Below, piece after piece: positions 4,170-35,083 of a stretch of 64,000 nt of DNA. The DNA comes from Crossaster papposus. Its lineage: Eukaryota; Echinodermata; Asteroidea; Velatida; Solasteridae. Numbering within the stretch: position 1 is the first letter of the stretch; each line of letters opens with the position of its first letter. Under the pieces are notes generated by a model, which ran no database searches, was not told where the DNA came from, and saw only the letters and a list, made by a program, of their open reading frames with translations. A program made the position numbers and the translations under genes. The stretch is from contig JBAIAA010000096.1 of assembly GCA_037893245.1 (NCBI GenBank), positions 1,488,001 to 1,552,000 on the forward strand, read 5' to 3'.

Positions 4170-6949
4170 ATGTCTCAGCTGCCATTGGTTAATGATTGTT
4201 TTGTCAAACAGTTTGCAATGGTTTACGGAGATTCCCAATGGAGATCCATGGTTGATGGACACGTAGATCTCAATGATGATGGGCAGTGTTTCCGGTTGGG
4301 AATAAGCTGCACACCAGGGGCAGGGATCCAAGATATACACAGGGTAAGTCTGAATAGGCAATAATTATTGGTAATGGAATAAGGGCGATGTAGGCCTACG
4401 GCGCCAATTTTGTGAGGGTTACCGGTTAGTGTACAAACAAGCATTAGGTGAGGTAATTATATGGGGATTGACGCTTTGAGCCTTTCCCTTTTCTTTTACC
4501 AGTCTCATACAAAGGATGGGTGTGTTTAAATTCTCAAACCAGGTCCATTCGGCAACACTATAAATCAGTCCTTTTCCGGGTCAAAACTTCTGTCAAGGTA
4601 ATGCCCCCCCCCCCCCCCCCCCCCCCCCCCCATCTGAATCAGGAGTTTTTTCTTTTATTGCTTTTGCTTTAAGGCCTGGCCACTTCCCCTCTCTATCCCC
4701 TGGAAAATAAATCATAGATTCCCCAAAAAATTCTTAGATAATTGTGTCCCTTTCTACAGGAAATAAGACGCAACAATGTAGGCACTGAACCGGAAGTCAT
4801 CTTATTTTCGGTTGGAACAAATAACGTATCCAGCTTGAATTGCAGCTTTGAGTCAACCCGTAGAGATTTAGATCGCATGCTTGACTCTGCGACTGAGATT
4901 CACCGAAACAGCAAAGTATGTACGGCCCACCGAAATGTGATTTTAATGTCTAAGTTTATTATTGCACACGATACATTCCAACAAAAGCTTGAAATAAAAA
5001 GACATTAACAAAATACCTTATGTTTTTTGTCATAATTATTATATGTTATGTTCCTTTGGTGTTTCAGATTGTCATGTTATCAATACTGCCACGGTTAGAC
5101 AGATTTGGGGCATCGGTGGCCAGGTATAATAACATGATGCACATCTTGTGCAAGCAAAAAAACATCAATTACATCGATGTAGGCGATGAGTTTCAAGAAA
5201 GAAAGAAATGGCTATGGTGTGTGGATGGCATACACCTGAGCGACACCGATGGCGCACCATTGCTCATTGAGCTGTTGCAAGAGGCAGTGGGTAAAGTGTT
5301 GTCATCACCACCACCGCCACCACCATACTCACCGCCGCTGCCACCACCACAGCACAGCAGCCAGAAAACATCAGCAACGCATCCAGCATCAGTAAAAGGT
5401 GAATGGATGGTTTGTTTAATGGGGGGGGGGGGGGGGGTGTATGGTATGCAAGAAGAAAGGGAAAAATATTCTACAAATTGATTAACATTGGCCGTTTTCC
5501 CTCCTTACTATGCTCTCTTGTAATTATCCATGCCAATAGGCCCTTCTACAGAAGGTCTGTGTTGGTGAGTGGGGTAAAGGGGGGGGGGGGGGGGGGGGGC
5601 TATTGGACACTGGGGGCTATTGGTTTATCGGTGGCGTGGTGTGTCCTGTCGATAAGTACGACGATTGAATTAACATGTCTAAGCTTTTTGAAAAACTAGC
5701 GCGTGAACGAGAACAATGGAATGACGTACGTATGACGTGACTAGAAAGTTTCGCTCTCCTTTTCCCTAATTTGATATATCGTTCACATTTTGTTAATTGA
5801 AATGACAAATAATATTTTATTGAAAGTTTTTTTTTCAGATTCTTCCATAATCACCAAATATTATGCAAATATGCTGCCCATAGAATACTTTTCTGTTTTG
5901 TTCAATGATCAGAACAAAAACCTTTTGGCTTTAGGTGCTTTAATGAGTTTGCGCTTTTGAGTCTATGTGCATTAAATAAATGAACATAAGTTCCTATGGA
6001 GTCACTGCTCAAGCTAAAACTCAAAGTCAGACTCAAGATCAATTTCTTTTTTCTGGATCCTTTTGAAATTTGACACAGATGTTATCTTATTAGATAATTG
6101 ACATAAATATCATGGTTTTTAAATTGGCGGAACTCACATCACATGACATGTATTGTTACTTCCATTACGCCGAAGTTCAAAACAGTCACATTCGCCTATG
6201 GTAAATGGGATTTACTATTCGTTTATCCTTGTTTAACGGCTTTTGAACAGTCCACCTTCACTCCAAAACACAGGAAGAAGGTCATGACCTGATCTGTGCT
6301 GCAAAGCCACGTGTCAGGTTCTATGTATATATATGTTATTATTGGTTTAAACACCATCGATGACGTAGTAAATCACTTACTTAATCTTTTTAATCTTTAG
6401 ATAAAACTGCGAAATCTAAAAAGATTCACATTAAAAATCTAGTCCTGGAAACTGAGGGTGGCCCGAAAAGAAGCCGTGCTAGTCGTCGATGTACGCCTAC
6501 AATGGAAGCAGCACAGCAGTACCATCGGAAATGCTCTGGATATTTGGAGTAAGTAACGTCTTGGTCATGAAGGTGCTACGGTCATAACCAGTAACTATTC
6601 ATTACAAACCCAATTGATACCCAGACATTAAAAGAAAGGAACATAACGGTTTAATTTTAACCGTTGAGGGATATTATTATTAGTATAATGGTGCGTTAAC
6701 CAACGGAGACAATATTCATTGTAACTTTGGCATAAAGAGAACTATCGAGGTATACCCAGTAATTATGTCCACTGATACTCCTCGTCGTCATTGTTGACAT
6801 TATCCATGACGTAATCTATCGTGCTTGATTAATTAATTTTCTAACACTTTTGTAACAATAGAAACAAACCACTGATGACGGGTCTTGGTGCCAGTTGCTT
6901 GAGTACAGTGACATATGCTCTTCCATATTCAAACGCAGCCATGTATAAG
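4170..6949 (+). CDS. Exons 1-5: SGNH/GDSL-type hydrolase module of the giant transposon gene
   Basis: Five exons are inferred at 4170-4343, 4760-4915, 5068-5398, 6401-6548 and 6862-6949. All introns are GT..AG and the phases agree (0, 0, 1, 2, 0). The 299 residues carry the SGNH hydrolase blocks: GDSQ with nucleophile Ser22, a glycine-bearing block II (SCTPGAGIQDI), GTNN (Asn79/80), and DGIH with Asp163 and His166. A hydrophobic strand (IVMLSILPRLD) lies between them, as in GDSL esterases. After the domain come a proline run (PPPPPPYSPPLPPP) and a Lys/Arg-rich linker. The start is the first in-frame ATG (4170); the frame is open upstream to 4077, so an upstream exon is possible. Exon 5 ends in phase 0, matching the acceptor at 7537-7538, so this reads into the large exon. 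Esterase domains are known in ORF1 of some CR1/L2 retrotransposons; finding one fused to a DDE transposase is unusual. Confidence is high for the domain and moderate for the exact exons. Confidence 0.72.
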
Positions 6950-7538
6950 GTATGTCATACTATGTAGCTTCTTCCCCAAACAACGGCTGTTCTATAATCT
7001 AGTAAATATATTTTTTTCAACGGACAATACTATAGGGAAAATGTATACACCTCCACTTTGTAAAGGCAGTTTTCAAAATAAACACCGGCGGCAATGGCTA
7101 ATTTTTGTACAACCAAAATACCATAAAAAATGTAGTCCTTTCTATTTGTTTATTTCTTTTTTATATATAGGCCTATATACAATAACATTGGCGGAAACAC
7201 GTATCTAAAGTGGGTGGATAAGTATCATTTTGTGAAGTCGTTGTTCCACCCCTATTAAACAAATATTGGTTGGTAGTTTTTGTTTATAGAAACTTGGGCT
7301 GCTATTAAAAACAGTTTAGCATTTCTTAGTAATCACCTATGAACACAGAAGAGACTAACATGGAAAATATGTACATAACAATACACATAGGCCTATCATT
7401 AATTGATAACGGCGATGACTCACGTCTTGAAATTGTTCTGTTCTTCTTTTGTATGGATTTTTGTGAGGGATAGGTCAACGATCCTGTCAATTGAAAATAA
7501 TGTGCAATGCAAGAGAATCATTTTTAAATCTGTTACAG

Positions 7539-10500
7539 AAATCGACCCATCACAACAACGACACCGGAGGGGGAAGAAAAAGGGTAAGGGGAGGTGAAAA
7601 GGTGTCCAGGATTGCCAGCGTTTTGGTCGAAACGTTAGAAGAATACCCGCTTGATGACGAGTACATATGGATATCTGAAACAAGTATGTTAAATTTACGT
7701 AGGAAAATGAAAACCCAAAAATGTAAGCAAAGGATTCTGATCATGTGGAGAAACAACCGTCAAGAGTTTAGAGAAAAGGTTCGCCAGTTGTTTCGTAACA
7801 AAACCAAAAATACCAAACCTAACAACCAGTCCGAGCCGATAAATGTGTCGCAGAATGATTCCAAATCGGTCAAAGCAACCGATCCCAATTCTGGACATGA
7901 CCAACAATCATGTCCTTCAAGGCCAGGACCAAATATCCAAACACAATCGTGTACTTCAAAGTCTAAACCCCCATCTGCAACATGTTCACAGTCTGGGCCA
8001 GCGACAACGAAGGCTCCAATATCTGGACAATTAGCCCCGTCAATGTGTTCATTGTCTGAACAAACAACATGTCCTAATGATGAACCGATCCCAATGTCAA
8101 CACCAGGATCTAAAGAAGATTTCAGGAATGTAATATCCAAAGATTATTCTAATTCAACAATCACTCATACAAATTCAATCAAGGTTTCCACACACTGCTC
8201 AACCGGCTCTATGTCTGAAACATTATATTGCATTTGTCGTCAACCCCACCACGATTCAAGAAGTATGATTGCGTGTGATAATTGTAATACCTGGTACCAC
8301 TATTTATGTATCGATCTTGAACCTGAAAATCAATGTAAATCTTACATGGATGATGTTACATTCAAGTGTGGCCTTAATGGTTGCAATGAGGGCGAAAGGG
8401 TGTTCATACACAATACAGTCACAGAACGTTCTTTTTTAAATGAAAAACGGGGTAATATTAACAACCAACAACGGACGACAAACTTGCCTGTGACAAATCC
8501 CCACTCAAAAGTCAAAAATTGGATTGATGACAATTCTACAGATTTTATAGAAAATTATTTTGATTTTGGTGATTTATCTTCTATAGATATTAAGCCAAAC
8601 ATATCACCCACTAGCTCGCCACAAAAACAAGCTCCGTCGTTGCGAACTTCAAGTTGTAATGATGACCATCATTCCATAAATAGTGCCATTAGTGACAATG
8701 TACGAATGGATGCATCCTTATCACATTTTTCAGAAAAATCTGTCCAATTGCCAGACATGAAAACAAGCAACTCATATAAATCTTCAAAAATTGTTACAAG
8801 TGACATAGATTTTTCAGGAATGGCTGAACAAAAATCATCAACTACATCTGGTGAAAAAGGGGACAACATTTTACCAGACAATGTTATTCTAGATATGTGC
8901 ACAGAAGCTGATGACGCCAGTACCAACACATTTCCAAAATTCTGGACAGTTCAATTGCCTAAAAAACAAAAAAGTTTCTTCTACGTTGATAGATCAGAGT
9001 GGAAGATTCTTAAGAAACAACAGAAAGGATGTACATTTCCAAAGCCATGGATTCATATTTTTATTAAAGGTTTAAAGACACTGCACCCCTATTGTTCATT
9101 CCAGTTTAGGCGCCATTATGTTTCCTCTAATTCAGGTAGAAAGCCTTCCAAAAACGCCTTTAGTGCCAGTGGGTATTGTAATTTCAATCACTGTACTGTA
9201 AAATTTAAATTAACAATGGAAACGGAAATCAATTTGAAAGTTCATGTTGCTTTTACTGGAAATGTTAAACACAACAAAAATGAACGTCGGGCAAGGTTTG
9301 TCCGAAACACACAGCGCGAAGCTCTGAAAGAGGTCCTCAAGTACAAAAAAACAAGGCGAGAGCACTTGGACAACCTTAAATCGTTAGGTGATACTGAGTT
9401 TCTCTCAGGTTGTCGGGACAGAGCTCCAAAAAAAGAGGTTTTACATAAAATTTCGAGCGAATCTAAGAGACTTTCTAATTCAAGTGAAAGTGAGATAAAG
9501 ATCCTTCTTGACATTATTCATAAGCAATCTGATTCAAGCAAGAAGTTTCCAGGCATTTTACGACAGGTTAGTTTGCATCCCCCCTATGTTATTTTATACT
9601 CACAAGAAAGCGTCAGAGTGTATCATCAACTATCACAGAGGGATATCCTATATTTTGATGCTACTGGATCAATTGTCAGGAATAATTCAACATTTTCTCC
9701 CAACAAGAAATACCAATTATATGACCTCGTGGTTCGTCACCCAGAAAAGGGTAATCCTCCGTACGTGCTTGCCTCTTTTCTTACAACAGATCACAACTCG
9801 GTTGTAATCAGTTTTTTTTTACAGTGTTTTTTACATTCGGAACAAAGCCTTTACGGTCACAATGGCGTTAAACCACCTCTTTTGTTGATGATTGATGGCA
9901 GCTCGACACTTTTGTTGGCAAGTTTAAAAGCTTTTAACTGTGAGACTGTAACAGAATACCTAAATCGGTGTTACAGTATCGTGACGGGTTCTGCCACAGA
10001 CAAAGATTTCAAGAAGACAATTGTACATTGCTGTGCAAGTCACTTCATGAAAAACGCCTCCAGAAAATGCCGCCGGTATTATCCTCAGAATTTTCGCGAT
10101 GCGATGTATTGGATCGGATTGCTTTTACAGGCAAGTAATATGAAAGACATCGACGCGATTGTAGAATCCTTGACATTCATTACATACTCGAAATTCGCAA
10201 CGGACTTAGTGAGACATCACTATCAAAAACTGAAATGCCAAATTGAAAACAGTGATAAAGATAAATTGGGAGATGATTTTTTGGAAGAAGACGAAGATGA
10301 AGATGGTAATTTTGGGGACGAATTTGAGCAAAGCGTGGGCTTGGAAAATGAAAACGATTTGTCCCAGATAAATATATCACAGGAAGATCACGTGGCAAAG
10401 GCACCAACTTCACCCTTTCGCATTCATTTTCAAAGATTGGTGGACAATGCAATCCGCCATTTGAATAAGTATAACATGACCGTAAATGATTTGTCGAAAT

Positions 10501-12890
10501 TGAATACAAATGCATATTTGGGAAAGGAGTACATGAGTTATTTGCTCGAATACTCTTTGCCAAACATTCCCAACTGGTCGGGGCTTTTAATTCACGATTT
10601 AGGCAGACACGGTAGTTCAGATACATACAAAAACTACTCGACGATGTACAGGTCACTTAACAAATCGGGATATCAAAACATAACGTCCGATAACCGCACT
10701 CAGGGTATAGTGGAAAAAAGTATGCAAGAGGTCAAAAGAGTGAAAATGAACCATAATAGATCGAGAAGAATTACTGATTTTGTGATAAATTACGAACGTG
10801 ACATGTTACCCTTGCAAAGGGAATTCTGCGAGGCATTTTGCGTGAAAACAAAAAAAATCCCCCACAAAACTGTTAAATTGTCTAATGAAATATGGCGCAA
10901 GCGTGTAAAAACAAGCACGCCATCTAAGAAAGGAGTTTACCTTACACCCCCCTCAACAAGATTAAAGTTTAAGGAGAAGTCAAAACAAAAACGCTCCAAA
11001 AAACCGGTGATTACTGTACCCGATTCAGATAATGAAGACGAAATATCCCCTCCAAAAAGAAAGAAATCAAATTTTCCTCAAACGTCCGGTTCAAGTAACA
11101 AGCACAAACGAAATATCAATATGGCCAATCAACCCAATCAACAGATTCCAACTTTACCTAGGGGTATTATAAACGATAAAGTATCGTGTTGGTGGATTTC
11201 AACTGTTCAAGCTGTAAAGCCTTTCGTTGCTGTAGCTAAGTTGAGTGTAGACAAATTTGAAGGGAGTGATACGTTTCTATGGCGACAGTTGATACAATTA
11301 TTTCAAATAATGTCAATGAAAAGGTCACAATCAGTACAATCTATACCTTTTCATATCGTGCATCCTTTGATCAAAGAGTCTGCCATTCAGATGAATTTCA
11401 GCTGCAACCAGCAACAGGACGCTGCAGAATTTTATTCACAGCTCATGGTACCGTTTTTTGGCGAGTCTTGTTTAACCAATGAAATTGAGATTTCAAAAAG
11501 CGTTACGTGCCTGAATTGCAACAAAAAGAAAGTAGTTGAAACTTCAACATCCGGTGTATTACCTGTTCCTGTTCAAAATATCAGCCTTCGCAATTGTGTG
11601 CAAAAATGTTTTGATGAAGAAATTGTAAGGGGTCTTAAATGTGATATGTGTGGGCAAGATCAGTGTACAAAAAGGGTTGTGTCTTATATTGTAAACTGTC
11701 CTACTTTATTAGTTGTACAATTGTTACGATTTCGTAATGTTGGGGGGCGACAGGTGAAAATTACAGCAGACGTTACCACTAGTATTGTTTTGGATTTGTC
11801 CAAGTTTTGTTTGAAGAATACTCCGGCAGTTTACGAGTTGAGGTCGGTAGTCGTCCACGAAGGCCAATCGTTGGAATCTGGACACTACAAAACCTTTGTC
11901 AGGGATCAATTAAATAATACAATAATAGAGTTCAATGATGGCATTGTTAAAGAAACAACTGCTCTTCGTTTTGCAAATCGAGTTTCCGAAACGGGATATT
12001 TGTTTTTTTATGAAAAAATTGAGTCGACAGAAGACACTATTGCATCGTTAAACTCGGACAAGTGGTTTACAGTAAATGAAAAAGAGGAGGAATTCGTACA
12101 ACTTATGTGGGCCTCAATTGATCCGAGAAATTTAAACAGCGTGGCAGTGCGTGACAAGAAAACCAAAGATTTTCTGTTCTTCCACCAATTGGCCATGATC
12201 AACAACATTCCTAAATCGCCTGTATTGAAGCGTTTGAGACATATCTATCCAAACTACAGTACTGGTTGGCTGAGCGAATCTGTCGTTGATTTTTATCTTA
12301 GTCAACTGTGCGAAATCGTAAATGCAGAGATCGATCAAATGCAATTATGGGCTATGCACTGTCATGAAACGTTGAAGATCATTAACAAGCAACCAACACC
12401 TCAAACGTTTCGATCAGTTTCTAAAGCCTTCATTGACGGTAAGAGATTTTGCGAAATCATGTTTTTCCCTCTCCTTGAAAACAAGCATTTTACTCTGTAT
12501 GTTTTGGACAACGCCCAGAACCAGCTTAAGTGCTATGACTCACTGAGTTGCAGTTCAGACACTCGCCAGAAAATGATTCATCATGGAAGCGCTTTTTTTG
12601 AGTTTTTCCTAAACGGTAGAAAAAATAGATGTTGGACTCAAACACCAAGTGTTTTACAAGGTCAGCAATTTCTTTCGGCCAGACAAGCAGTGTGCACGCA
12701 ACAAACAGATTTGGCGAGTTGCGGAGTATTCTGCTGCTTGTATGCTGAAGAAATCGGTCTCAAAACAAAACAAATCAAAGACGACAATGCTAACAAACTT
12801 AGGATCTACATAACTATGCAGGTTTTAAAACGATCGCACATCGTAGATCCAGAGCTAAGTAGATTGTTCCTAGCTTACTTTAATAAGTAA
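7539..12890 (+). CDS. Exon 6: PHD finger - MULE-like DDE transposase - USP protease - ULP1 protease
   Basis: This single exon encodes 1,783 residues (residues 300-2082 of the inferred spliced protein). The acceptor TTTTTAAATCTGTTACAG ends at 7538, and an in-frame stop at 7464 blocks a longer unspliced ORF. ATG 7500 is the alternative start if the exon is used alone. Domains in order: a Ser/Thr/Pro-rich linker, a PHD finger (about 530-583), a Cys/His region resembling FLYWCH/WRKY-type DNA-binding zinc folds (C846, C851), a DDE core (D1006, D1085, CxxH 1131-1134, E1358), a basic linker with KRKK-type nuclear signals, a USP domain (C1516, H1748, D1766) and a ULP1 domain (H1949, D1966, C2027). 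An acidic run (EEDEDED) lies between the CxxH and the catalytic Glu. The reading frame is intact, so recent activity is plausible. The DDE layout with CxxH is that of MULE/NOF-type transposases; ULP1 capture by MULEs is known in plants (Kaonashi, CUMULE). The likely role is transposition in the nucleus, plus removal of ubiquitin and SUMO from targets not identifiable here. Confidence 0.93.
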   Translation, partial: KSTHHNNDTGGGRKRVRGGEKVSRIASVLVETLEEYPLDDEYIWISETSMLNLRRKMKTQKCKQRILIMWRNNRQEFREKVRQLFRNKTKNTKPNNQSEPINVSQNDSKSVKATDPNSGHDQQSCPSRPGPNIQTQSCTSKSKPPSATCSQSGPATTKAPISGQLAPSMCSLSEQTTCPNDEPIPMSTPGSKEDFRNVISKDYSNSTITHTNSIKVSTHCSTGSMSETLYCICRQPHHDSRSMIACDNCNTWYHYLCIDLEPENQCKSYMDDVTFKCGLNGCNEGERVFIHNTVTERSFLNEKRGNINNQQRTTNLPVTNPHSKVKNWIDDNSTDFIENYFDFGDLSSIDIKPNISPTSSPQKQAPSLRTSSCNDDHHSINSAISDNVRMDASLSHFSEKSVQLPDMKTSNSYKSSKIVTSDIDFSGMAEQKSSTTSGEKGDNILPDNVILDMCTEADDASTNTFPKFWTVQLPKKQKSFFYVDRSEWKILKKQQKGCTFPKPWIHIFIKGLKTLHPYCSFQFRRHYVSSNSGRKPSKNAFSASGYCNFNHCTVKFKLTMETEINLKVHVAFTGNVKHNKNERRARFVRNTQREALKEVLKYKKTRREHLDNLKSLGDTEFLSGCRDRAPKKEVLHKISSESKRLSNSSESEIKILLDIIHKQSDSSKKFPGILRQVSLHPPYVILYSQESVRVYHQLSQRDILYFDATGSIVRNNSTFSPNKKYQLYDLVVRHPEKGNPPYVLASFLTTDHNSVVISFFLQCFLHSEQSLYGHNGVKPPLLLMIDGSSTLLLASLKAFNCETVTEYLNRCYSIVTGSATDKDFKKTIVHCCASHFMKNASRKCRRYYPQNFRDAMYWIGLLLQASNMKDIDAIVESLTFITYSKFATDLVRHHYQKLKCQIENSDKDKLGDDFLEEDEDEDGNFGDEFEQSVGLENENDLSQINISQEDHVAKAPTSPFRIHFQRLVDNAIRHLNKYNMTVNDLSKLNTNAYLGKEYMSYLLEYSLPNIPNWSGLLIHDLGRHGSSDTYKNYSTMYRSLNKSGYQNITSDNRTQGIVEKSMQEVKRVKMNHNRSRRITDFVINYERDMLPLQREFCEAFCVKTKKIPHKTVKLSNEIWRKRVKTSTPSKKGVYLTPPSTRLKFKEKSKQKRSKKPVITVPDSDNEDEISPPKRKKSNFPQTSGSSNKHKRNINMANQPNQQIPTLPRGIINDKVSCWWISTVQAVKPFVAVAKLSVDKFEGSDTFLWRQLIQLFQIMSMKRSQSVQSIPFHIVHPLIKESAIQMNFSCNQQQDAAEFYSQLMVPFFGESCLTNEIEISKSVTCLNCNKKKVVETSTSGVLPVPVQNISLRNCVQKCFDEEIVRGLKCDMCGQDQCTKRVVSYIVNCPTLLVVQLLRFRNVGGRQVKITADVTTSIVLDLSKFCLKNTPAVYELRSVVVHEGQSLESGHYKTFVRDQLNNTIIEFNDGIVKETTALRFANRVSETGYLFFYEKIESTEDTIASLNSDKWFTVNEKEEEFVQLMWASIDPRNLNSVAVRDKKTKDFLFFHQLAMINNIPKSPVLKRLRHIYPNYSTGWLSESVVDFYLSQLCEIVNAEIDQMQLWAMHCHETLKIINKQPTPQTFRSVSKAFIDGKRFCEIMFFPLLENKHFTLYVLDNAQNQLKCYDSLSCSSDTRQKMIHHGSAFFEFFLNGRKNRCWTQTPSVLQGQQFLSARQAVCTQQTDLASCGVFCCLYAEEIGLKTKQIKDDNANKLRIYITMQVLKRSHIVDPELSRLFLAYFNK
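8226..8390 (+). other. PHD finger domain
   Basis: The Cys4-His-Cys3 pattern is complete: CIC, then MIACDNC, then TWYHYLC, then FKC and a last Cys in LNGC. Tryptophan two residues before the His is the usual PHD core residue. PHD fingers of this CIC..CDxCxxWxHxxC type commonly read the H3 tail (often H3K4me3). By inference this one could bring the transposase complex to active chromatin. Confidence 0.9.
9540..10760 (+). other. MULE/NOF-like DDE transposase core
   Basis: The first Asp lies in ILYFDATGS (codon 9657), at the end of a beta-strand as in RNase H-fold transposases. The second is in LLLMIDGSSTLLLASLKAF (codon 9894), followed by CxxH in HCCASHFMKN (10032-10043). The candidate Glu is in RTQGIVEKSMQEVKR (codon 10713), which resembles the T..VE......K pattern of MULE transposases. 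The 79-residue D-D spacing and the long D-E insertion fit the MULE/hAT/P-type group. Assignment to the NOF branch rests on element architecture and is less certain than the DDE call. Confidence 0.8.
11148..12030 (+). other. USP-type (C19) deubiquitinase domain
   Basis: The Cys box is divergent but keeps the nucleophile in VSCWWISTVQAV (Cys codon 11187). NQQQDAAEFYSQLM matches the conserved USP QQDAxEF block. Two CxxC pairs (CLNC, CDMC) give the zinc-ribbon fingers. The His box is SLESGHYKTFVR (His codon 11883), followed by FNDGIV (Asp codon 11937) and the terminal GYLFFYEK strand. Cys, His and Asp are all present, so activity is plausible. The usual Asn/Gly before the Cys is altered (NDKVSC), which may affect oxyanion-hole geometry. 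Confidence 0.85.
12240..12790 (+). other. ULP1/SENP-type (C48) cysteine protease domain
   Basis: The N-terminal substrate-binding element GWLSESVVDFYLSQL is typical of ULP1 domains. FPLLENKHFTLYVLDN holds the catalytic His (codon 12486), CYDSL the Asp (codon 12537), and QQTDLASCGVFCCLYAEE the Gln/Cys pair (Cys codon 12720). The triad is complete. The family removes SUMO or related modifiers; adenovirus and Polinton proteases share the fold, so the true substrate could be different. Confidence 0.88.
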
Positions 12891-13214: not shown

Positions 13215-16200
13215 GCTTATTTGTCTGCACTGTTATGTGGAAAACTGAGCCTTCTCATTAGGCCTTTAATTAAGACCTAATTAGTGGACCGAATTGACCC
13301 CCTCCAAAATTTGATCTGCCTAAACAATGAATGAAAGGGATTATGTAATAAAAATGCACATTTGTGAAACTATGTGGTGTACATTTACTTTTAAAGTGGT
13401 CTTATTGTCGGCCGTATTCATTTTTCTGCACTTTTTGAGTGGAAACCTGAGCTTCCTCAATAGACTTTTAATTAAGACCTCATTAGTGGACCGAATTGGC
13501 CCCCTCCAAAATTTGATCTGCCTAAGAGATGGATAAAAGGGATTATGTAATAAAAATGAACATTTGTGAAACTATGTGGTGTATACATTTACTTTTAAAG
13601 TGGTCTTATTGTCGGCCGTATTCATTTGTCTGCATTTTAGAGAGGAAACTGAACCTTCTCATTAGGCCTTTAATTAAGACCTAATTAGTGGACCGAATTG
13701 GCCCCCTCCAAAATTAGATCTGCCTAAAGGGTGAATAAAACGGATTATGTAATAAAAATGAACATTTGTGAAACTATGTGGTGTACATTTACTTTTAAAG
13801 TGATCTTAGTGTCAGCCGTATTCATTTGTCTGCACTTTTTGAGTGGAAAACTGAGCTTCCTCATTAGACTTTTAATTAAGACCTAATTAGTGGACCGAAT
13901 TGGCCCCCTCCAAAATTTGATCTGCCTAAAGGATACATAACATGGATTGTGTAATAAAAATGCACATTTGTGAAACTATGTGGTGTACATTTACTTTTAA
14001 AGTGGTCTTATTGTCAGCCGTATTCATTTGTCTGCATTTTAGAGAGGAAACTGAACCTTCCTCATTAGGCCTTTAATTAAAACCTAATTAGTCGACCGAA
14101 TTAGCCCCCTCCAACATTAGATCTGCCTAAGAGATGGATAAAAGGGATTATGTAATAAAAATGCACATTTGTGAAACTATGTGGTGTACATTTACTTTTA
14201 AAGTGGTCTTATTGTCAGCCGTATTCATTTTTCTGCATTTTAGAGAGGAAACTGAACCTTCTCATTAGACCTTTAATTAAAACCTAATTAGGGGACCGAA
14301 TTGGCCCCCTCCAAAATTAGATCTGCCTAAAGGGTGAATAAAACGGATTATGTAATAAAAATGCACATTTGTGAAACTATGTGGTGTACATTTACTTTTA
14401 AAGTGGTCTTATTGTCAGCCGTATTCATTTGTCTGCACTTTTTGAGTGGAAAACTGAGCTTCCTCATTAGACTTTTAATTAAGACCTAATTAGTGGACCG
14501 AATTGGCCCCCTCCAAAATTTGATCTGCCTAAAGGATACATAAAATGGATTGTGTAATAAAAATGCACATTTGTGAAACTATGTGGTGTACATTTACTTT
14601 TAAAGTGATCTTAGTGTCAGCCGTATTCATTTGTCTGCATTTTAGAGAGGAAACTGAACCTTCCTCATTAGGCCTTTAATTAAAACCTAATTAGTCGACC
14701 GAATTGACCCCCTCCAAAATTGTATCTGCCTAAAGGATACATAAAATGGATTATGTAATAAAAATGCACATTTGTGCAACTATGTGGTGTACATTTACTT
14801 TTAAAGTGGTCTTAGTGTCAGCCGTATTCATTTGTCTGCATTTTAGAGAGGAAACTGAACCTTCCTCATTAGGCCTTTAATTAAAACCTAATTAGTGGAC
14901 CGAATTAGCCCCCTCCAACATTAGATCTGCCTAAGAGATGGATAAAAGGGATTATGTAATAAAAATGAACATTTGTGAAACTATGTGGTGTACATTTACT
15001 TTTAAAGTGATCTTAGTGTCAGCCGTATTCATTTGTCTGCATTTTAGAGAGGAAACTGAACCTTCCTCATTAGGCCTTTAATTAAAACCTAATTAGTCGA
15101 CCGAATTGACCCCCTCCAAAATTGTATCTGCCTAAAGGATACATAAAATGGATTATGTAATAAAAATGCACATTTGTGCAACTATGTGGTGTACATTTAC
15201 TTTTAAAGTGGTCTTAGTGTCAGCCGTATTCATTTTTATGCACTTTTTGAGTGGAAAACTGAGCTTCCTCATTAGACTTTTAATTAAGACCTAATTAGTG
15301 GACCGAATTAGCCCCCTCCAAAATTAGATCTGCCTAAGAGATGGATAAAAGGGATTATGTAATAAAAATGAACATTTGTGAAACTATGTGGTGTACATTT
15401 ACTTTTAAAGTGATCTTAGTGTCAGCCGTATTCATTTGTCTGCATTTTAGAGAGGAAACTGAACCTTCCTCATTAGGCCTTTAATTAAAACCTAATTAGT
15501 CGACCGAATTGACCCCCTCCAAAATTGTATCTGCCTAAAGGATACATAAAATGGATTATGTAATAAAAATGCACATTTGTGCAACTATGTGGTGTACATT
15601 TACTTTTAAAGTGGTCTTAGTGTCAGCCGTATTCATTTTTATGCACTTTTTGAGTGGAAAACTGAGCTTCCTCATTAGACTTTTAATTAAGACCTAATTA
15701 GTGGACCGAATTAGCCCCCTCCAAAATTAGATCTGCCTAAGAGATGGATAAAAGGGATTATGTAATAAAAATGAACATTTGTGAAACTATGTGGTGTACA
15801 TTTACTTTTAAAGTGGTCTTATAGTGTCAGCCGTATTCATTTGTCTGCATTTTAGAGAGGAAACTGAACCTTCCTCATTAGGCCTTTAATTAAAACCTAA
15901 TTAGTGGACCGAATTGGCCCCCTCCAAAATTTGCTCTGCCTAAAGGATACATAAAACGGATTATGTAATAAAAATGCACATTTGTGCAACTATGTGGTGT
16001 ACATTTACTTTTAAAGTCTTGCTTGGCGGATACCGGCGCCTTATAAATGTTCATTATTATTATTATTATTATTATTAAAGTGGTCTTAGTGTCAGCCGTA
16101 TTCATTTGTATGCACTTTTTGAGTGGAAAACTGAGCTTCCTCATTAGACTTTTAATTAAGACCTAATTAGTGGACCGAATTGGCCCCCTCCAAAATTTGA

Positions 16201-19200
16201 TCTGCCTAAAGGATACATAAAATGGATTGTGTAATAAAAATGCACATTTGTGAAACTATGTGGTGTACATTTACTTTTAAAGTGATCTTAGTGTCAGCCG
16301 TATTCATTTGTCTGCATTTTAGAGAGGAAACTGAACCTTCCTCATTAGGCCTTTAATTAAAACCTAATTAGTCGACCGAATTGACCCCCTCCAAAATTGT
16401 ATCTGCCTAAAGGATACATAAAATGGATTATGTAATAAAAATGCACATTTGTGCAACTATGTGGTGTACATTTACTTTTAAAGTGGTCTTAGTGTCAGCC
16501 GTATTCATTTGTCTGCACTTTTTGAGTGGAAAACTGAGCTTCCTCATTAGACTTTTAATTAAGACCTAATTAGTGGACCGAATTGGCCCCCTCCAAAATT
16601 TGATCTGCCTAAAGGATACATAAAATGGATTGTGTAATAAAAATGCACATTTGTGAAACTATGTGGTGTACATTTACTTTTAAAGTGATCTTAGTGTCAG
16701 CCGTATTCATTTGTCTGCATTTTAGAGAGGAAACTGAACCTTCCTCATTAGGCCTTTAATTAAAACCTAATTAGTCGACCGAATTGACCCCCTCCAAAAT
16801 TGTATCTGCCTAAAGGATACATAAAATGGATTATGTAATAAAAATGCACATTTGTGCAACTATGTGGTGTACATTTACTTTTAAAGTGGTCTTAGTGTCA
16901 GCCGTATTCATTTGTCTGCATTTTAGAGAGGAAACTGAACCTTCCTCATTAGGCCTTTAATTAAAACCTAATTAGTGGACCGAATTAGCCCCCTCCAACA
17001 TTAGATCTGCCTAAGAGATGGATAAAAGGGATTATGTAATAAAAATGAACATTTGTGAAACTATGTGGTGTACATTTACTTTTAAAGTGATCTTAGTGTC
17101 AGCCGTATTCATTTGTCTGCATTTTAGAGAGGAAACTGAACCTTCCTCATTAGGCCTTTAATTAAAACCTAATTAGTCGACCGAATTGACCCCCTCCAAA
17201 ATTGTATCTGCCTAAAGGATACATAAAATGGATTATGTAATAAAAATGCACATTTGTGCAACTATGTGGTGTACATTTACTTTTAAAGTGGTCTTAGTGT
17301 CAGCCGTATTCATTTTTATGCACTTTTTGAGTGGAAAACTGAGCTTCCTCATTAGACTTTTAATTAAGACCTAATTAGTGGACCGAATTAGCCCCCTCCA
17401 AAATTAGATCTGCCTAAGAGATGGATAAAAGGGATTATGTAATAAAAATGAACATTTGTGAAACTATGTGGTGTACATTTACTTTTAAAGTGGTCTTATA
17501 GTGTCAGCCGTATTCATTTGTCTGCATTTTAGAGAGGAAACTGAACCTTCCTCATTAGGCCTTTAATTAAAACCTAATTAGTGGACCGAATTGGCCCCCT
17601 CCAAAATTTGCTCTGCCTAAAGGATACATAAAACGGATTATGTAATAAAAATGCACATTTGTGCAACTATGTGGTGTACATTTACTTTTAAAGTGGTCTT
17701 AGTGTCAGCCGTATTCATTTGTATGCACTTTTTGAGTGGAAAACTGAGCTTCCTCATTAGACTTTTAATTAAGACCTAATTAGTGGACCGAATTGGCCCC
17801 CTCCAAAATTTGATCTGCCTAAAGGATACATAAAATGGATTGTGTAATAAAAATGCACATTTGTGAAACTATGTGGTGTACATTTACTTTTAAAGTGATC
17901 TTAGTGTCAGCCGTATTCATTTGTCTGCATTTTAGAGAGGAAACTGAACCTTCCTCATTAGGCCTTTAATTAAAACCTAATTAGTCGACCGAATTGACCC
18001 CCTCCAAAATTGTATCTGCCTAAAGGATACATAAAATGGATTATGTAATAAAAATGCACATTTGTGCAACTATGTGGTGTACATTTACTTTTAAAGTGGT
18101 CTTAGTGTCAGCCGTATTCATTTTTATGCACTTTTTGAGTGGAAAACTGAGCTTCCTCATTAGACTTTTAATTAAGACCTAATTAGTGGACCGAATTAGC
18201 CCCCTCCAAAATTAGATCTGCCTAAGAGATGGATAAAAGGGATTATGTAATAAAAATGAACATTTGTGAAACTATGTGGTGTACATTTACTTTTAAAGTG
18301 GTCTTATAGTGTCAGCCGTATTCATTTGTCTGCATTTTAGAGAGGAAACTGAACCTTCTCATTAGGCCTTTTATTGAGACCTAATTAGTGGACCGAATCG
18401 GCCCCCTCCAAAATTTGATCTGCCTAAAGGATACATAAAATGGATTATGTAATAAAAATGCACATTTGTGCAACTATGTGGTGTACATTTACTTTTAAAG
18501 TGATCTTAGTGTCAGCCGTATTCATTTGTCTGCATTTTAGAGAGGAAACTGAACCTTCCTCATTAGGCCTTTAATTAAAACCTAATTAGTCGACCGAATT
18601 GACCCCCTCCAAAATTGTATCTGCCTAAAGGATACATAAAATGGATTATGTAATAAAAATGCACATTTGTGCAACTATGTGGTGTACATTTACTTTTAAA
18701 GTGGTCTTAGTGTCAGCCGTATTCATTTTTATGCACTTTTTGAGTGGAAAACTGAGCTTCCTCATTAGACTTTTAATTAAGACCTAATTAGTGGACCGAA
18801 TTAGCCCCCTCCAAAATTAGATCTGCCTAAGAGATGGATAAAAGGGATTATGTAATAAAAATGAACATTTGTGAAACTATGTGGTGTACATTTACTTTTA
18901 AAGTGGTCTTATAGTGTCAGCCGTATTCATTTGTCTGCATTTTAGAGAGGAAACTGAACCTTCTCATTAGGCCTTTTATTGAGACCTAATTAGTGGACCG
19001 AATCGGCCCCCTCCAAAATTTGATCTGCCTAAAGGATACATAAAATGGATTATGTAATAAAAATGCACATTTGTGCAACTATGTGGTGTACATTTACTTT
19101 TAAAGTGGTCTTAGTGTCAGCCGTATTCATTTTTCTGCATTTTAGAGAGGAAACTGAACCTTCTCATTAGACCTTTAATTAAGACCTAATTAGGGGACCG

Positions 19201-20290
19201 AATTGGCCCCCTCCAAAATTAGATCTGCCTAAAGGGTGAATAAAACGGATTATGTAATAAAAATGCACATTTGTGAAACTATGTGGTGTACATTTACTTT
19301 TAAAGTGGTCTTATTGTCAGCCGTATTCATTTGTCTGCACTTTTTGAGTGGAAAACTGAGCTTCCTCATTAGACTTTTAATTAAGACCTAATTAGTGGAC
19401 CGAATTGGCCCCCTCCAAAATTAGATCTGCCTAAAGGATACATAAAAGGGATTATGTAATAAAAATGAACATTTGTGAAACTATGTGGTGTACATTTACT
19501 TTTAAAGTGGTCTTATAGTGTCGGCCGTATTCATTTGTCTGCATTTTAGAGAGGAAACTGAACCTTCTCATTATGCCTTTTATTAAGACCTAATTAGTGG
19601 ACCGAATTGGCCCCCTCCAAAATTAGATCTGCCTAAGAGATGGATAAAAGGGATTATGTAATAAAAATGCACATTTGTGAAACTATGTGGTGTACATTTA
19701 CTTTTAAAGTGGTCTTAGTGTCAGCCTTGTTTATTTTTCTGCACTTTTTGAGTGGAAAACTGAGCTTTCTCATTAGACTTATAATTAAGACCTCATTAGT
19801 GGACCGAATTAGCCCCCTCCAAAATTAGATCTGCCTAAGAGATGGATAAAAGGGATTATGTAATAAAAATGAACATTTGTGAAACTATGTGGTGTACATT
19901 TACTTTTAAAGTGGTCTTATAGTGTCAGCCGTATTCATTTGTCTGCATTTTAGAGAGGAAACTGAACCTTCTCATTAGGCCTTTAATTGAGACCTAATTA
20001 GTGGACCGAATCGGCCCCCTCCAAAATTTGATCTGCCTAAAGGATACATAAAATGGATTATGTAATAAAAATGCACATTTGTGCAACTATGTGGTGTACA
20101 TTTACTTTTAAAGTGGTCTTATTGTCAGCCGTATTCATTTTTCTGCACTTTTTGAGTGGAAAACTGAGCTTCCTCATTAGACTTTTAATTAAGACCTAAT
20201 TAGTGGACCGAATTGGCCCCCTCCAAAATTTGTTCTGCCAAAGAGATGGATAAGATAGATTACACCGTAAAATACAAATTATTTTTATGC
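13215..20290 (+). repeat. Right inverted arm of fold-back element: ~34 copies of a ~204-bp monomer
   Basis: Counting the ACTATGTGGTGTACATTTAC word gives about 34 monomers, the first near 13,367 and the last near 20,085, a mean period of about 204 bp. Two subtypes recur: one with CACTTTTTGAGTGGAAAACTGAGC and one with ATTTTAGAGAGGAAACTGAACC. Blocks of several monomers are themselves repeated (for example around 15,000-15,700 and 17,050-17,400), so higher-order duplication occurred. The outermost copy decays after about 20,240. The array is the reverse complement of the left arm. The short frames seen through the monomers are not maintained and are not genes. Confidence 0.95.
16017..16074 (+). 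mobile_element. 5'-truncated retroposon tail with (ATT)n
   Basis: A 58-bp insertion interrupts one arm monomer and is flanked by TTAAAG on both sides (16011-16016 and 16075-16080). It ends in TTATAAATGTTCATT followed by ATT repeats, the 3' signature of a LINE or SINE family. A second copy of the same tail is at 30,490-30,522. It sits in one monomer only, so it postdates the last local amplification. Confidence 0.75.
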
Positions 20291-20700
20291 AAAATGAAAA
20301 ATTTCGTTGCCATAGTCTCAGAACTCCTGAAATAAAAAAACACAGTTTTGACCACCCTTTACTCTATCCATTTGAGATTTTGAAACCGCGGCTGAGAACG
20401 CGGCTGAAACCGCGGTTGAGACCGCGGCTGGAGAACGCGGCTGAGAACGCGGCTAGGTTCAGTCAGGTAGACTCGACTAGACTCGACTGACGGCGGCGCA
20501 TGTAGTGTCATCGCATCGCGAGCGCCCCAGCCGGCCAGCTGCAGGATGACATCGATGCGGAACAGGAAAGATGGACGTTGTTGAAGTAAGTACCATGCCT
20601 CCTGACTGGTAATTTCATATCATAGTGTTTCCAGACCTAGTTGTTGTTGCCCGTGAAGCCATTGTCCCTTCGCTAATTTGGCTGCAGCCGTTTTTGTACA
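20291..20700. other. GC-rich minisatellite and possible first exon
   Basis: At about 20,386-20,455 a short tandem repeat based on GCGGCTGAGAAC / GCGGCTGAAACC is followed by CpG-rich sequence and GACTCGACT repeats. An ATG at 20,571 opens five codons (MDVVE) and runs into a consensus donor, GTAAGT, at 20,586. This could be the CpG-rich promoter and first exon of a host gene whose later exons are not in view. No downstream exon is recognised, so the call is weak. Confidence 0.25.
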
Positions 20701-22916: not shown

Positions 22917-22993
22917 TTACCTGTTTCGTGCACTGTGCTGTAGTGGATGGGTGGTTTAGCCATCCACTACAGCACAATGCACGAAACAGGTAA
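22917..22993. repeat. Long near-perfect hairpin (34-bp arms)
   Basis: The arms 22,917-22,950 and 22,960-22,993 pair over 34 bp with a single mismatch, across a 9-base loop (GTGGTTTAG). The left arm begins TTACCTGTTTCGTGCACTGT. Such a stem could be a snap-back duplication, a very short MITE, or a hairpin RNA precursor. The right arm ends in a donor-like CAGGTAAG. Confidence 0.9.
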
Positions 22994-29780: not shown

Positions 29781-30610
29781 GTTCCACGTGTAACTGGGAC
29801 ACCAATATCTTGGTGTCCCAGTTACACGGGGAACAAAGACCAAATTTCAGTGGTGTTTATGTTGCCTGTGATAAAACACAATTTTCAGGTATGCACATAT
29901 TTAAGATGGTCAGTAGTACAACATTACTAACTTTGAAAATGCTCAGGGGCCAAAACATGCATGAAAGGTTCCACATGTAAATAGGACACCAAAATGTTGG
30001 TGTCCTATTTACACGTGAAACAAAGACTACATTTTCTGGCGTCTGTTTCCTGTAATAAAATTTAATATTCATACATGTATGCACAGACCTATTTAAGATG
30101 GTCAGTATTAATTACTGAATATAAAAATACTCCCAGGGTCAAAACATGCATGAAAGGTTCCATGTGTAAATGGGACACCAAAATGTTGGTGTCCTATTTA
30201 CACGTGGAACAAAGACTACATTTTAGTGGCGTCTGTTTCCTGTAATAAAATTTAATCTGCATACATGTATGCACAGACCTATTTAAGATGGTCAGTATTA
30301 ATTACTGAATATGAAAATACTCCCAGGGTCAAAACATGCATGAAAGGTTCCATGTGTAAATGGGACACCAACATCTCTTGGTGTCCCATTTACACGTAGA
30401 ACAAAGAGCCAATTTTAGTGGTGTGGGTTTTGTATGGTAAAATTAAACTGCATGTATTTAAGATGGTCAGTAGCACAAGTACATGAACTTATAAATTATA
30501 AATGTTCATTATTATTATTATTATGAACTGAAATTGAATATTCTCCCAGAGTCAAAACATGTATGAAAGGTTCCGCACGGACCTATGGGACACAAATTTT
30601 TGTGTCAGTC
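29781..30610. repeat. Subterminal array of large palindromes in transposon B
   Basis: Four ~25-bp-arm palindromes start at 29,781, 29,968, 30,157 and 30,347, and a decayed fifth at about 30,570. Each has the core GGGACACCAA or AGGACACCAA, a 3-6 base loop, and TTGGTGTCC. They sit in a direct repeat of about 190 bp that also contains AAACATGCATGAAAGGTTCC and AAGATGGTCAGTA. Palindromic subterminal repeats are typical transposase binding sites. The same core is scattered at both ends of A and at the right end of B. Confidence 0.88.
30490..30522 (+). mobile_element. Second (ATT)n retroposon tail
   Basis: A 33-bp insertion ending in TTATAAATGTTCATT plus ATT repeats is flanked by ATGAACT (30,483-30,489 and 30,523-30,529). 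The sequence matches the tail at 16,017-16,074. It lengthens the spacing between the fourth and fifth palindromes of the B array. Confidence 0.7.
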
Positions 30611-31092: not shown

Positions 31093-34000
31093 TTATTCAA
31101 TAGCATTGAAATTTTTTTCAGCATCTTTTAAATTAAATTTAAAAAACAAACGTGACCCGACAGCAACGGGCTCTGGTGCTTCAAGCTTTGCAACAATGTC
31201 GGTGATGGGGTGCAGAAAAAATACTTCGTCTCCCTGCGGCCAGGTGTATTGGTTGCTACCCTTTGCTTTGATCATGTACGAGAGGCTGTATGACTCATCG
31301 TCTGGTACAGATGCTACCTGCAATTTGGATTGACAAAGTAAGCAGTACAATACAAATTAAATACAACATTTTACATGTACTTTGTTACCATAGTACATGT
31401 ATAAATCTAGCTTAATAAATCTATTTTTTGCGATCCACCAGTCTTTGAGATGTACGACCCACGTTGAAAAGCTTGAGCATCTTTGTCGTTACTTAATTCT
31501 ATTTTCCAATTTTTTATGTGTAGATAGTATGAAAATATTTACCTGCGCTACATGTAATTCATCTGATCTTGCTTTTCTTCCAGTACTGGTTACCCTTACT
31601 GCAACAAAATCTTGTACACCAGCGGTTGTAAGTGAAATGGCTCTACCTGTTAAAAAAACCCACAAATTAGAAAACAATAATAAAAAACAAGGCATATGAT
31701 TTGTACATTGGTTGGCGAAACAAAATTACTATTAATCACCTCTTTTTCATTGCTGTTGTTTAAAAGTATAAATCCAATTCTCCAACATTCTGGCATATTT
31801 GATTTACATTACTCAATCATGCCTACCTTTGATGCTATTATGTGCAGGTGCTAGAACTTCTACTTCTGTGGGGTGGGCAGAATCATCTTCTCCTGTACGG
31901 TGGACAGTGTCTACTTCTCCTGTGGTGTGGGAAGAATCTTCTCCTGTGGGGTGGGAAGAATCTTCTCCTCCTGTAGGGTGGGATGTAGCTGTAATAAAAT
32001 AAATTAAATAATTGAAATATGATCAGTTTCTGGTGTTACATTGTATTTTTTTGTTTACTTTTAAGCATTGATTAAAAATTGACATTGTACATGTTGTACC
32101 GTTTACGTATGATGCTCTGCTTCTACAATAATTTTTATTATACTCAAAAAGTTCATTTTCAAACATTTTCGCTAATTTAAGGGTCTCGGCATGTTCAGTC
32201 GTGCTGCACAGTAAACACATTTGTGATCTAGCATACATGTAACAAAGTTCATTTACCTTTTCTTCTGTTTGTAAGTTGAACCTCCTTCCAAGGGTGTACA
32301 TAAGCTGCATTTACACATCTGCCGTATCCTCCGAGACACGAATCGCAGAAACATGAGAGATTCCTAGTAGCAACTTTTCCTCCGTTGACACTCCTGACAC
32401 TGTGTAACTTCCTTGTTCCAGGGACCGTTCTTAGTGCCCTGTCTTGCCGCTCTCGCAAAACTTCTTCATGGTTTACGAAGAGAACAGATCTCCTGAATGA
32501 AGTGCAGCATTGGTCCTCGGTAGCGTCCTTTGTGACATTCCCTTCAAGGTAATTATACAACTGCTTGGGGGTGCTGATGATTGCAATTCCAGCTTTGATG
32601 GCTTCGGCTGCTTTCCTCTTTACCACACCGCTTTCTCCATCACTGGCACCTTTGCCATGTCTTGTGCCTGAGTAGTTGTGGTGGATTGTATGCCCAAAAT
32701 CTTCCCTTCCGTAGCTTATATCTGAGATGGGCCCTTTACTTTTATATTGACTGCTACAACCGTCTGAGAACCTGTAAAACTTTGTAATCTTCAAGCCTCT
32801 TGTAGCAGTCAGATGGTCGGTAACTTTTCTATGAAAAGTATTGACAAGATGGTAGTCGTGGGTCAAATCATCGCTAACCATTACGATACTTTCCCTCACT
32901 GGTTTTAAACATTTAGGACAGCAGTAATAGTTAACAACAGGGTGTACTGTTGCTGAATCATGAGAGTAGTAGGCGCTTTGTACTTCACGTTGGTGTTCGC
33001 ATTTGAAGTTTTCTGCGAAATCATACACTCCCAACACCTCATTCAATTTCAGCTTCTTGATAAGATTTTTTTCTTGATTATTTTGCCAGTCCTTATTGAA
33101 TAGGTGTTCACTGAATGGACGAATCTCAGTCTTAAGCTCCATCACCAAATCCATCACAGTTCCCTGTTTTTCAACAGGCTTTCGTTTCTTGACTTCCTTT
33201 GTTCCCTTACTGGTGAAACACGTTGTTGTCACAATTGACCATCGTTTCCACTTGATGCTGTTGTTAGGGTTGGCAAGTATAGGACGAAGTCTTTCATCCA
33301 TTTTGTCAACACCACATTTCCTACAGTTCCTTGTGATACAGGAGTGATGGTTAAAGTCCCATTCTGGTGGCTTGGGGCACATCGTTGTTCTGATAACATC
33401 ATAGCCATCTTTGAAGGTTCCCTTGTGGATGCTGTTGATTGCTTCTATCTTGAGATTGACATTTTCACAGTACTCGCACAGACAGCCAATATACTTGGCT
33501 TGTGCTTTAGTTTTTACATTTTTGGGTCTGAGACGATAGAAGATCCCTGCACTTACTGGCTGATCTGGATGTGCTTTGCTGTATTTCTGGTAGAGATCTG
33601 CTATGGTTGTTTCCATTACATGTGCTGGTTCAAAGGTTTTTTTGCTGACGAATTTTTTATCAGGCAAAGTACTTGAATTTGCTTGGTAGAATTCTTGGAC
33701 GAGTTTAATCTTTTCCAATGAGATACCACTTCGGCCAGCTGATCGTTTCCTTGCTCTTCCAAGAAGTTTGCGGCTACAACCAAAGTATTTTGCAGCCTTC
33801 CTTTGTTGCTTATACCTTTTTATCGCACTGAGAGACATGGCCATATACTTCCGTTTTGCAGAATTTCTTGGTCCTGAAAGGACATCGCCAACGGCTTCCA
33901 TCACTCCTTCATGTAATGGATTTCTACCTGTTAATCCCGCCTTTTTTAGTCCAGCAGCTTTCCTTGGTGAAGCTTTCTCTACTAGGTCAATTGTTGTGGA

Positions 34001-34852
34001 AACAAAATGCGACCTTTGTTGTGGCATAGCTTCTCTGGCACGTTGAAGGCTCTTTCTCCTGGCATCATTGGACCGGATGTCAATACCATCTTCGCCTAGG
34101 TCTTTGTTTATGTTTTGTAACCTTGTCTTCGTTTCTAGCAACTCTATCTCTCTTGCATGCAACTGTTCCTCCTGATCTTTCAACTTCTGCTGCATCTCTT
34201 TCAGCTTTTTTTCCCTTTCTAGAATCTTCATTTCTCCCTTGGCCGCATAATTTGTTCGTCTTTTCTCATTAATCTTGGCCATCTCTGCCGTACTTTTCTT
34301 AGCACGCTGTTTTCGTTTCCTCTCACTTTCATGAGCTTTTTTTTTCTCATGTTCTCTTCTTGTCATGGCTTTTTTAGGTTTGCTATTCTTTTTAAGATCA
34401 GCTTTTTTTCTTGCATTCATCTTCGCCATCCTCTTTCTGGCTGTTTCATTGTTACGTTGTTTCCTTTTATACCATTTCTCGGCCTCTTCTCTTTCTTTTT
34501 CTGTTAGATTTCTCTTCTTCAGCTTTTCCTCGGCAGTTGCACAGGATAGCCGGTGGTAACTACTGTATACCTTAGCCTCCTTCTTCATCTTCTCATATTT
34601 CTCAGGTTTTGTTTGTTTCTGACGGTCTCTCCAATTTTGCGTTTTTCCCTTTGAAGGCAGAGGAGCAGTGCTTTTGGAAGCAGTACCCTCATCTTGGGTT
34701 CGATGCTGGAGCCTTATCCGCAATGTGTATGGTAGCGGTATTCTTTTCTTCTTCTTCTCTGGTTCGTTTGAAGAGGTTGAGGCATTGCTTGTGGAAGCAT
34801 CTTCATCTGATTTTCCCTTTTTCCCACGAATCCGCAAGGTGAATGGTCGCAT
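31093..34852 (-). CDS. Four-exon transposase-like gene of transposon B
   Basis: Exons on the minus strand are 34852-32257, 31988-31827, 31646-31543 and 31317-31093, with GT..AG introns and phases 1, 1, 0, giving about 1,028 residues. The start is the first ATG of the main ORF; CTCTAAG just before it could be an acceptor for a 5' exon ending at 35,909 before a GTAAGT donor. Residues about 80-270 are extremely Lys/Glu-rich and coiled-coil-like. The middle has several CxxC pairs. Candidate catalytic residues are D611 (YDFAENF), D697 (FSDGCSSQYKS) and E740 (GKGASDGESGVVKR). A C-terminal cysteine cluster (CFCDSC..GRC) follows. Exon 2 encodes four SSHPTGED-like repeats; exon 4 encodes a YTWPxG..HPxxDIVxxLE domain. 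This FSDG..QYKS / GKGxxDG family is common in predicted genes of marine invertebrates. A DDE fold is inferred; Sola affinity is a hypothesis from the 4-bp TSD. Confidence 0.85.
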
Positions 34853-35083
34853 CTTAGAGTAAGGCAATGGCAGGCTAACCCTAGTACAAGTACAACAACA
34901 AATATAAATTAGAATGTTTTATTAAAAATAATAAATGACAAACTTCAAGTTGATTTTTGCCATCTGCTACCTTACATTACATGTAGGCCCTGAAAAAAAA
35001 TTCAAAACTGAGAAAATTTTTATAGATTTATAGGCCCACCTAATCCAGCCCAGTCTTTTCTTTTATATTTTATGTTGTAGGGG

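Follow-up and report, generated by a model that had tools for sequence, protein, structure and literature searches.

We describe a mobile element and its gene in a 64,000-nucleotide stretch of DNA from the sea star Crossaster papposus (C96:1488001–1552000 of a 1.02-Gb assembly, whose contigs are labelled C plus a number). This stretch is termed the window, and positions given without a contig name refer to it. One spliced reading of the gene encodes a predicted protein with SGNH hydrolase, PHD, zinc-finger, DDE transposase, USP and ULP1 modules. Probably this is the transposase gene of a giant cut-and-paste transposon that was recently active, belongs to the Mutator superclade and is built like Rehavkus. 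An initial annotation of the DNA described the gene alone; the gene itself holds, but it belongs to a 23-kb element absent from that annotation.

Ends, arms and copies of the element

The transposon spans C96:1485295 to C96:1508468, a total of 23,174 bp. Its left end lies outside the window (at window position −2705) and its right end is 20468, leaving 1–20468 (+ strand) as the part inside, delimited by outer ends common to copies and by a 9-bp target-site duplication (TSD). The gene is flanked by inverted arrays of ~202-bp satellite units: the left arm (1–1240, − strand) runs on leftward, with unit matches traced to C96:1485613, and the right arm (13219–20262, + strand) holds 34.6 units. In their longest pair the arms are 97% complementary over 808 nt, and such long inverted arms built of tandem units are a foldback-type structure. 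With up to two mismatches allowed, a word from the satellite unit is found 6 times, reversed, in the left arm and 34 times in the right arm, and nowhere else in the window, 40 in all. The genome holds at least 206 matches to the unit; C584 and C762 also carry facing arrays, and C774, C601, C531 and C649 carry short forms of them. At 16010–16090 the right array is broken by a short stretch of foreign sequence that includes an ATT run.

Beyond the right array lies the outer terminus (20263–20468, + strand, ending ...GTTCAGTCAGGT), which comparison of ends found to be common to C96, C584, C762, C364, C671 and C738. The 9-bp TSD AGACTCGAC follows at 20469–20477 and is also found before the left end. 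All three copies with both flanks have a perfect 9-bp TSD: AGACTCGAC for this element, and TTGCTGATG and GGTCACGTG for the other two. Judged by its sequence, the element is complete: its inverted arms are built of satellite units, a 9-bp target duplication flanks it, and it exists in several copies.

Searching the genome with the main open reading frame (ORF; 7467–12890, open over 1,807 amino acids) gave at least 35 matches in at least 24 places, by our own grouping and with 26 of 575 candidates scored. Near-identical copies (96–100%) stand in eight places: the frame runs uninterrupted through all 1,807 residues at C96 and C364 and is broken at C762 and C584, C671 and C738 are partial matches, and C601 and C774 match residues 1407–1807 only, between facing arrays, as would be expected of deletion derivatives. 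The remaining copies are 43–60% identical in their best stretches. Within the genome, a tree of 21 core rows has four supported groups plus C241, and branches inside the groups are very short.

These copies bear on whether we are dealing instead with a captured or domesticated host gene whose surrounding repeats are accidental. The long intact frame and a core under purifying selection would suit such a gene, but its ends would not be expected to be precise and shared or to carry 9-bp duplications, nor would the gene be expected in near-identical form in eight places, two of them with deletion derivatives that keep the same 1407–1807 stretch between facing arrays. We consider a host gene extremely improbable, and treat the gene below as that of the transposon.

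Relatives also exist outside the genome. Protein P0002 carries PHD, UCH and C48 domains in the order of the window gene, and P0004 carries UCH and C48 but gave no match to PHD; the three sequences gained from a third protein search, P0008 to P0010, are short fragments. Homologues sharing the domain order, whose absence had been set beforehand as a refutation of the five-module gene, do exist. In the core tree P0003 falls among the groups of this genome and P0002 and P0004 fall outside them, under a midpoint root with long branches and unsure deep joins. Viral contigs scanned with alignment A2 gave no confirmed relative among 78 pattern matches.

Some further features were seen among the divergent copies. 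Downstream in the C360 subfamily (C360:748781–752280) lies an array whose units measure 415 bp (8.4 copies within 3.5 kb) and are unrelated by blastn to the window satellite unit; the one 600-bp piece examined for a partner arm contained none. At C7 the 3.5 kb read contained no downstream array. At C7, C838 and C535 a long coding repeat, DADPDIT-like and with a period of 21 bp or 42 bp, makes up the N-terminal part of the frame, while 129-bp coding repeats occur at C360, C643 and C245, and the C360 ORF has two PHD stretches. There are 48 C48 matches in the genome, and ULP1-bearing ORFs of ~1,000 amino acids at C845, C589 and C539 lie outside the ORF-search matches listed.

A probable single spliced gene and its modules

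Six exons with GT-AG ends (4170–4343, 4760–4915, 5068–5398, 6401–6548, 6862–6949 and 7539–12890) join into an in-frame product of 2,082 amino acids. Enumerating junction combinations from the local GT and AG sites left two open, differing only at the exon-3 donor; the intact frame, five consistent junctions and 2,082-residue product first annotated were thereby reproduced. The first exon is retained, but its start at ATG 4170 is doubtful because the exon bearing the GDS block opens at an AG acceptor in all four divergent copies read (C489, C7, C360 and C241), and the window has a like acceptor at 4211/4212. A candidate first coding exon of 40 amino acids (2875–2994, + strand), running from an ATG to a phase-0 GTGAGT donor, is in frame with the 4212 acceptor and fits there, giving a product of 2,108 amino acids; it is open and ungapped in the four other near copies compared.

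All exons are on the + strand. The SGNH exons are 4212–4343, with the GDS block (YGDSQW at 4224), 4760–4915, with the GxN block (VGTNN at 4811), and 5068–5398, with the DxxH block (5224), a proline-rich tail and a phase-1 donor. Two linker exons follow, the first of them basic (6401–6548 and 6862–6949), and then the main exon (7539–12890), which encodes the PHD finger, zinc finger, DDE core, USP and ULP1 and ends in a stop codon at 12888–12890.

The joined SGNH exons match Pfam Lipase_GDSL_2 at 44.3 bits (cut-off 32.9); singly, pieces around exons 2 and 3 reach 14.5 and 23.4 bits, under that cut-off. The GDS, GxN and DxxH blocks occur together in one SGNH domain, and among divergent copies read GDSQWR is present in 4 of 4, GTNN in 4 of 4 and DxxH in 5 of 5. 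Searched against PDB sequences, the SGNH product returned weak rows of other folds only, mainly G-alpha chains. Using the joined product of exons 1–5 as query, with 131 of 237 candidates scored, 17 of the 24 ORF-match places proved to have SGNH exons upstream in the same orientation (C96, C364, C762, C584, C671, C7, C489, C838, C241, C535, C643, C360, C617, C245, C362 and two on C64), and none were matched at C738, C1097, C601, C549, C774, C871 and C762:69333. At all seven of the latter the ORF match is partial, in some with stops, and some of their exons may also lie among the candidates beyond the 131 scored. Matched stretches of the three SGNH exons end at similar positions across places.

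The element might instead contain two genes, one for an SGNH esterase alone and one, beginning near 7500, for a transposase with PHD, DDE, USP and ULP1. An ATG at 7500 does open the main frame, and the gene calls of P0002 and P0004 start without SGNH; weighing further against a single gene, the two linker exons were matched in that same search in near copies only, and in none of the divergent subfamilies. Yet the SGNH part seems to be spliced onward to the rest of the gene, because by inspection the third SGNH exon stays open to a phase-1 GT donor, as at 5398, in all five divergent copies read (C489, C7, C360, C241 and C535), with a stop further on; neither in these nor in the window copy is there an in-frame stop before the exon-3 donor, and phase 1 holds throughout. 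Exon 7539, moreover, has a codon-aligned acceptor in the window and in C241, P0002 and P0004 have Gln at the place of 7539 on our own reading, as a read-through CAG acceptor would give, and all four near copies compared show conserved linker exons. We judge two genes unlikely and continue with the single spliced gene.

Splice sites are kept in the four other copies compared, except that C584, which also has a broken main frame, has lost the exon-5 donor to a deletion. Differences in these near copies number none in exons 2 and 5 (for exon 5, over the part present), 0–1 in exon 4 and 2–8 of 331 in exon 3, while aligned intron parts differ by ~1–17%, gaps counted. The ratio of nonsynonymous to synonymous divergence (dN/dS) against C762, resting on few changes, is 0.085 for the core, 0.24 for ULP1, 0.097 and 0.50 for the two parts of USP, and 0.60 for the N-terminal part with PHD; against C364 it is 0.55 overall, from 25 changes. 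Between subfamilies the core has dN of 0.28–0.46, with dS mostly saturated. Splice and codon conservation rule out a chance ORF.

Within the main exon, the PHD finger (8226–8396, + strand) aligns with that of P0002 and scores 23.3 bits with Pfam PF00628, just under the cut-off of 24, which is exceeded in P0002, C489 and C360. A WRKY-like zinc finger, a putative DNA-binding domain, follows at 8961–9302 (+ strand). The DDE core (9636–10721, + strand) contains YFDATG (9651), MIDGSS (9888), CCASHF (10029) and RTQGIVEKSM (10695). No Pfam family covers it, no transposase family is among the Pfam matches of 10 members of core alignment A3, and a PDB sequence search with the A3 profile gave two weak, uninformative rows. 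The predicted fold of the core is RNase-H/DDE-like, of the Mutator/IS256 type, and is nearest that of ISCth4, an IS256-type relative of Mutator.

The USP (ubiquitin carboxyl-terminal hydrolase; 11163–12011, + strand), with SCWWIS (11184), SGHYKT (11877) and EFNDGIV (11928), matches Pfam UCH at 86.2 bits (cut-off 23.9; E 3.5e-24), and its catalytic Cys and His boxes are invariant in all seven rows of alignment A2. The ULP1/C48 protease (12261–12815, + strand), with NKHFTL (12480), CYDSLS (12531), VCTQQTD (12690) and LASCGVF (12711), matches Peptidase_C48 at 25.8 bits (cut-off 20.7) when the C-terminal piece is scanned alone; the family was not reported in the Pfam scan of the whole ORF. The best PDB sequence match of this region is SENP1 (E 0.0023). 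Its His-Asp-Gln-Cys residues are present in all four A2 rows reaching the site (window, C360, C7 and C245) and, on reading, in P0002 and P0004. A single reading in which SGNH, PHD, DDE, USP and ULP1 belong to one gene, as the initial annotation had it, is supported. The USP and ULP1 are likely active proteases, because catalytic residues are kept and selection is purifying overall.

The protease and SGNH modules could in principle be passive passengers with no role in transposition, since Mutator-like elements (MULEs) tend to pick up host gene fragments, according to the available part of PMC6446971. Passengers would be expected to decay, however, whereas subfamilies 41–57% identical still have these modules, catalytic residues included, and USP and ULP1 are both kept in P0002 and P0004. 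Passenger status is therefore quite improbable, and we take the modules to be working parts of the transposase in what follows.

Proposed mechanism and the rest of the window

In the mechanism that we propose, the WRKY-like finger would bind the ends or the satellite units, the units forming an array of sites, and the DDE core would cut the ends and join them, 9 bp staggered, to the target. Through its PHD finger the complex would be anchored to a histone-tail state. The two proteases would strip ubiquitin and SUMO from proteins; the initial annotation proposed chromatin-linked marks as their targets, but they may instead act on the transposase itself, or on proteins of silencing and repair at the donor or target site. 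The SGNH unit, with catalytic residues in place, would be a putative esterase.

More speculatively, and with less than even probability in our estimate, the transposase lineage may be a self-contained chromatin-editing machine that combines PHD histone reading, ubiquitin and SUMO removal, an esterase and cutting, the arms serving as a multivalent landing platform and seeding new satellite. If so, stripping by USP and ULP1 would lift SUMO-dependent silencing, or free repair factors, at the element's own site. Here a single transposase would combine a histone reader with two enzymes, one removing ubiquitin and the other SUMO. SUMO takes part in animal transposon silencing, and an enzymatic fight of a transposon against silencing is therefore directly testable. 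Giant foldback arms on a Mutator-type element with recent copies are also a possible source of satellite DNA. Judging from this gene, large proteins of animals that carry PHD, USP and ULP1 annotations may be transposases.

Elsewhere in the window, an 872-amino-acid ORF (32249–34867, − strand), lysine-rich at its start and Cys/His-rich later, has no Pfam match at E<=0.001 and is perhaps another mobile-element protein. Further tandem arrays, of 190-bp and 232-bp units, lie at 29781–30421 and 61449–62228, and a 34-nt inverted repeat at 22917–22993 has arms 97% complementary with 9 nt between them. An Rfam scan of the window found no family at gathering score.

Comparison with known systems

The papers cited here were available in part, and statements drawn from them refer to those parts. 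By description, not by protein sequence, the element is like Rehavkus (Rehavkus-1_TC and Rehavkus-1_HR), which has a PHD in its transposase, a 9-bp TSD, satellite or minisatellite termini and one ORF (PMC6446971); PMC10218199 also treats the shared PHD, 9-bp TSD and satellite in inverted termini. The element is larger (23 kb versus 9.5 kb) and has more units (34.6 on one side versus mostly five and eight), while the tabled terminal inverted repeats (TIRs) of Rehavkus measure 26–400 bp; its USP, ULP1 and SGNH modules go unmentioned for Rehavkus in the available part of PMC6446971.

As regards MULEs, the 9-bp TSD is within their range of ~8–11 bp (PMC6446971) and the predicted core fold is nearest ISCth4. 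The element shares Ulp1 with hydra and lancelet Mutators, but its core is without a Pfam match, and USP and SGNH are unreported for Mutators in what was available of PMC2836005. Ginger1 likewise has a C-terminal Ulp1, with both Ulp1 and PHD in one family, but combines it with a Gypsy-integrase-type core, a 4-bp CCGG/CCGT TSD, TIRs of 40–270 bp and a length of 2.6–7 kb (PMC2836005), unlike the 9-bp TSD and satellite arms found here. Ginger as the family is ruled out by TSD length, 9 bp versus 4 bp. The same source records a protist transposase with a ubiquitin hydrolase.

Long inverted arms that are internally repetitive are shared with the foldback-like elements Galileo, Tetris and nematode Tm1 (PMC3573991, PMC4079207, PMC3169594), of which Galileo is placed in the P-element superfamily; USP, ULP1 and SGNH, present here, are not named for these three in the available parts of the sources. 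An SGNH hydrolase gene is also moved by a DNA transposon in platyfish, where a Helitron, of another transposon class, has captured it (PMC4021074), whereas here SGNH is fused to a DDE transposase.

We found no description of the full SGNH-PHD-DDE-USP-ULP1 combination in the available open-licence literature (Repbase Reports were not covered), in keeping with the original remark that no animal element with all five modules had been described. Parts of the module set are not new, because animal Mutators are already known to have ULP1, one Ginger1 family to have Ulp1 together with PHD (PMC2836005), and Rehavkus to have PHD (PMC6446971).
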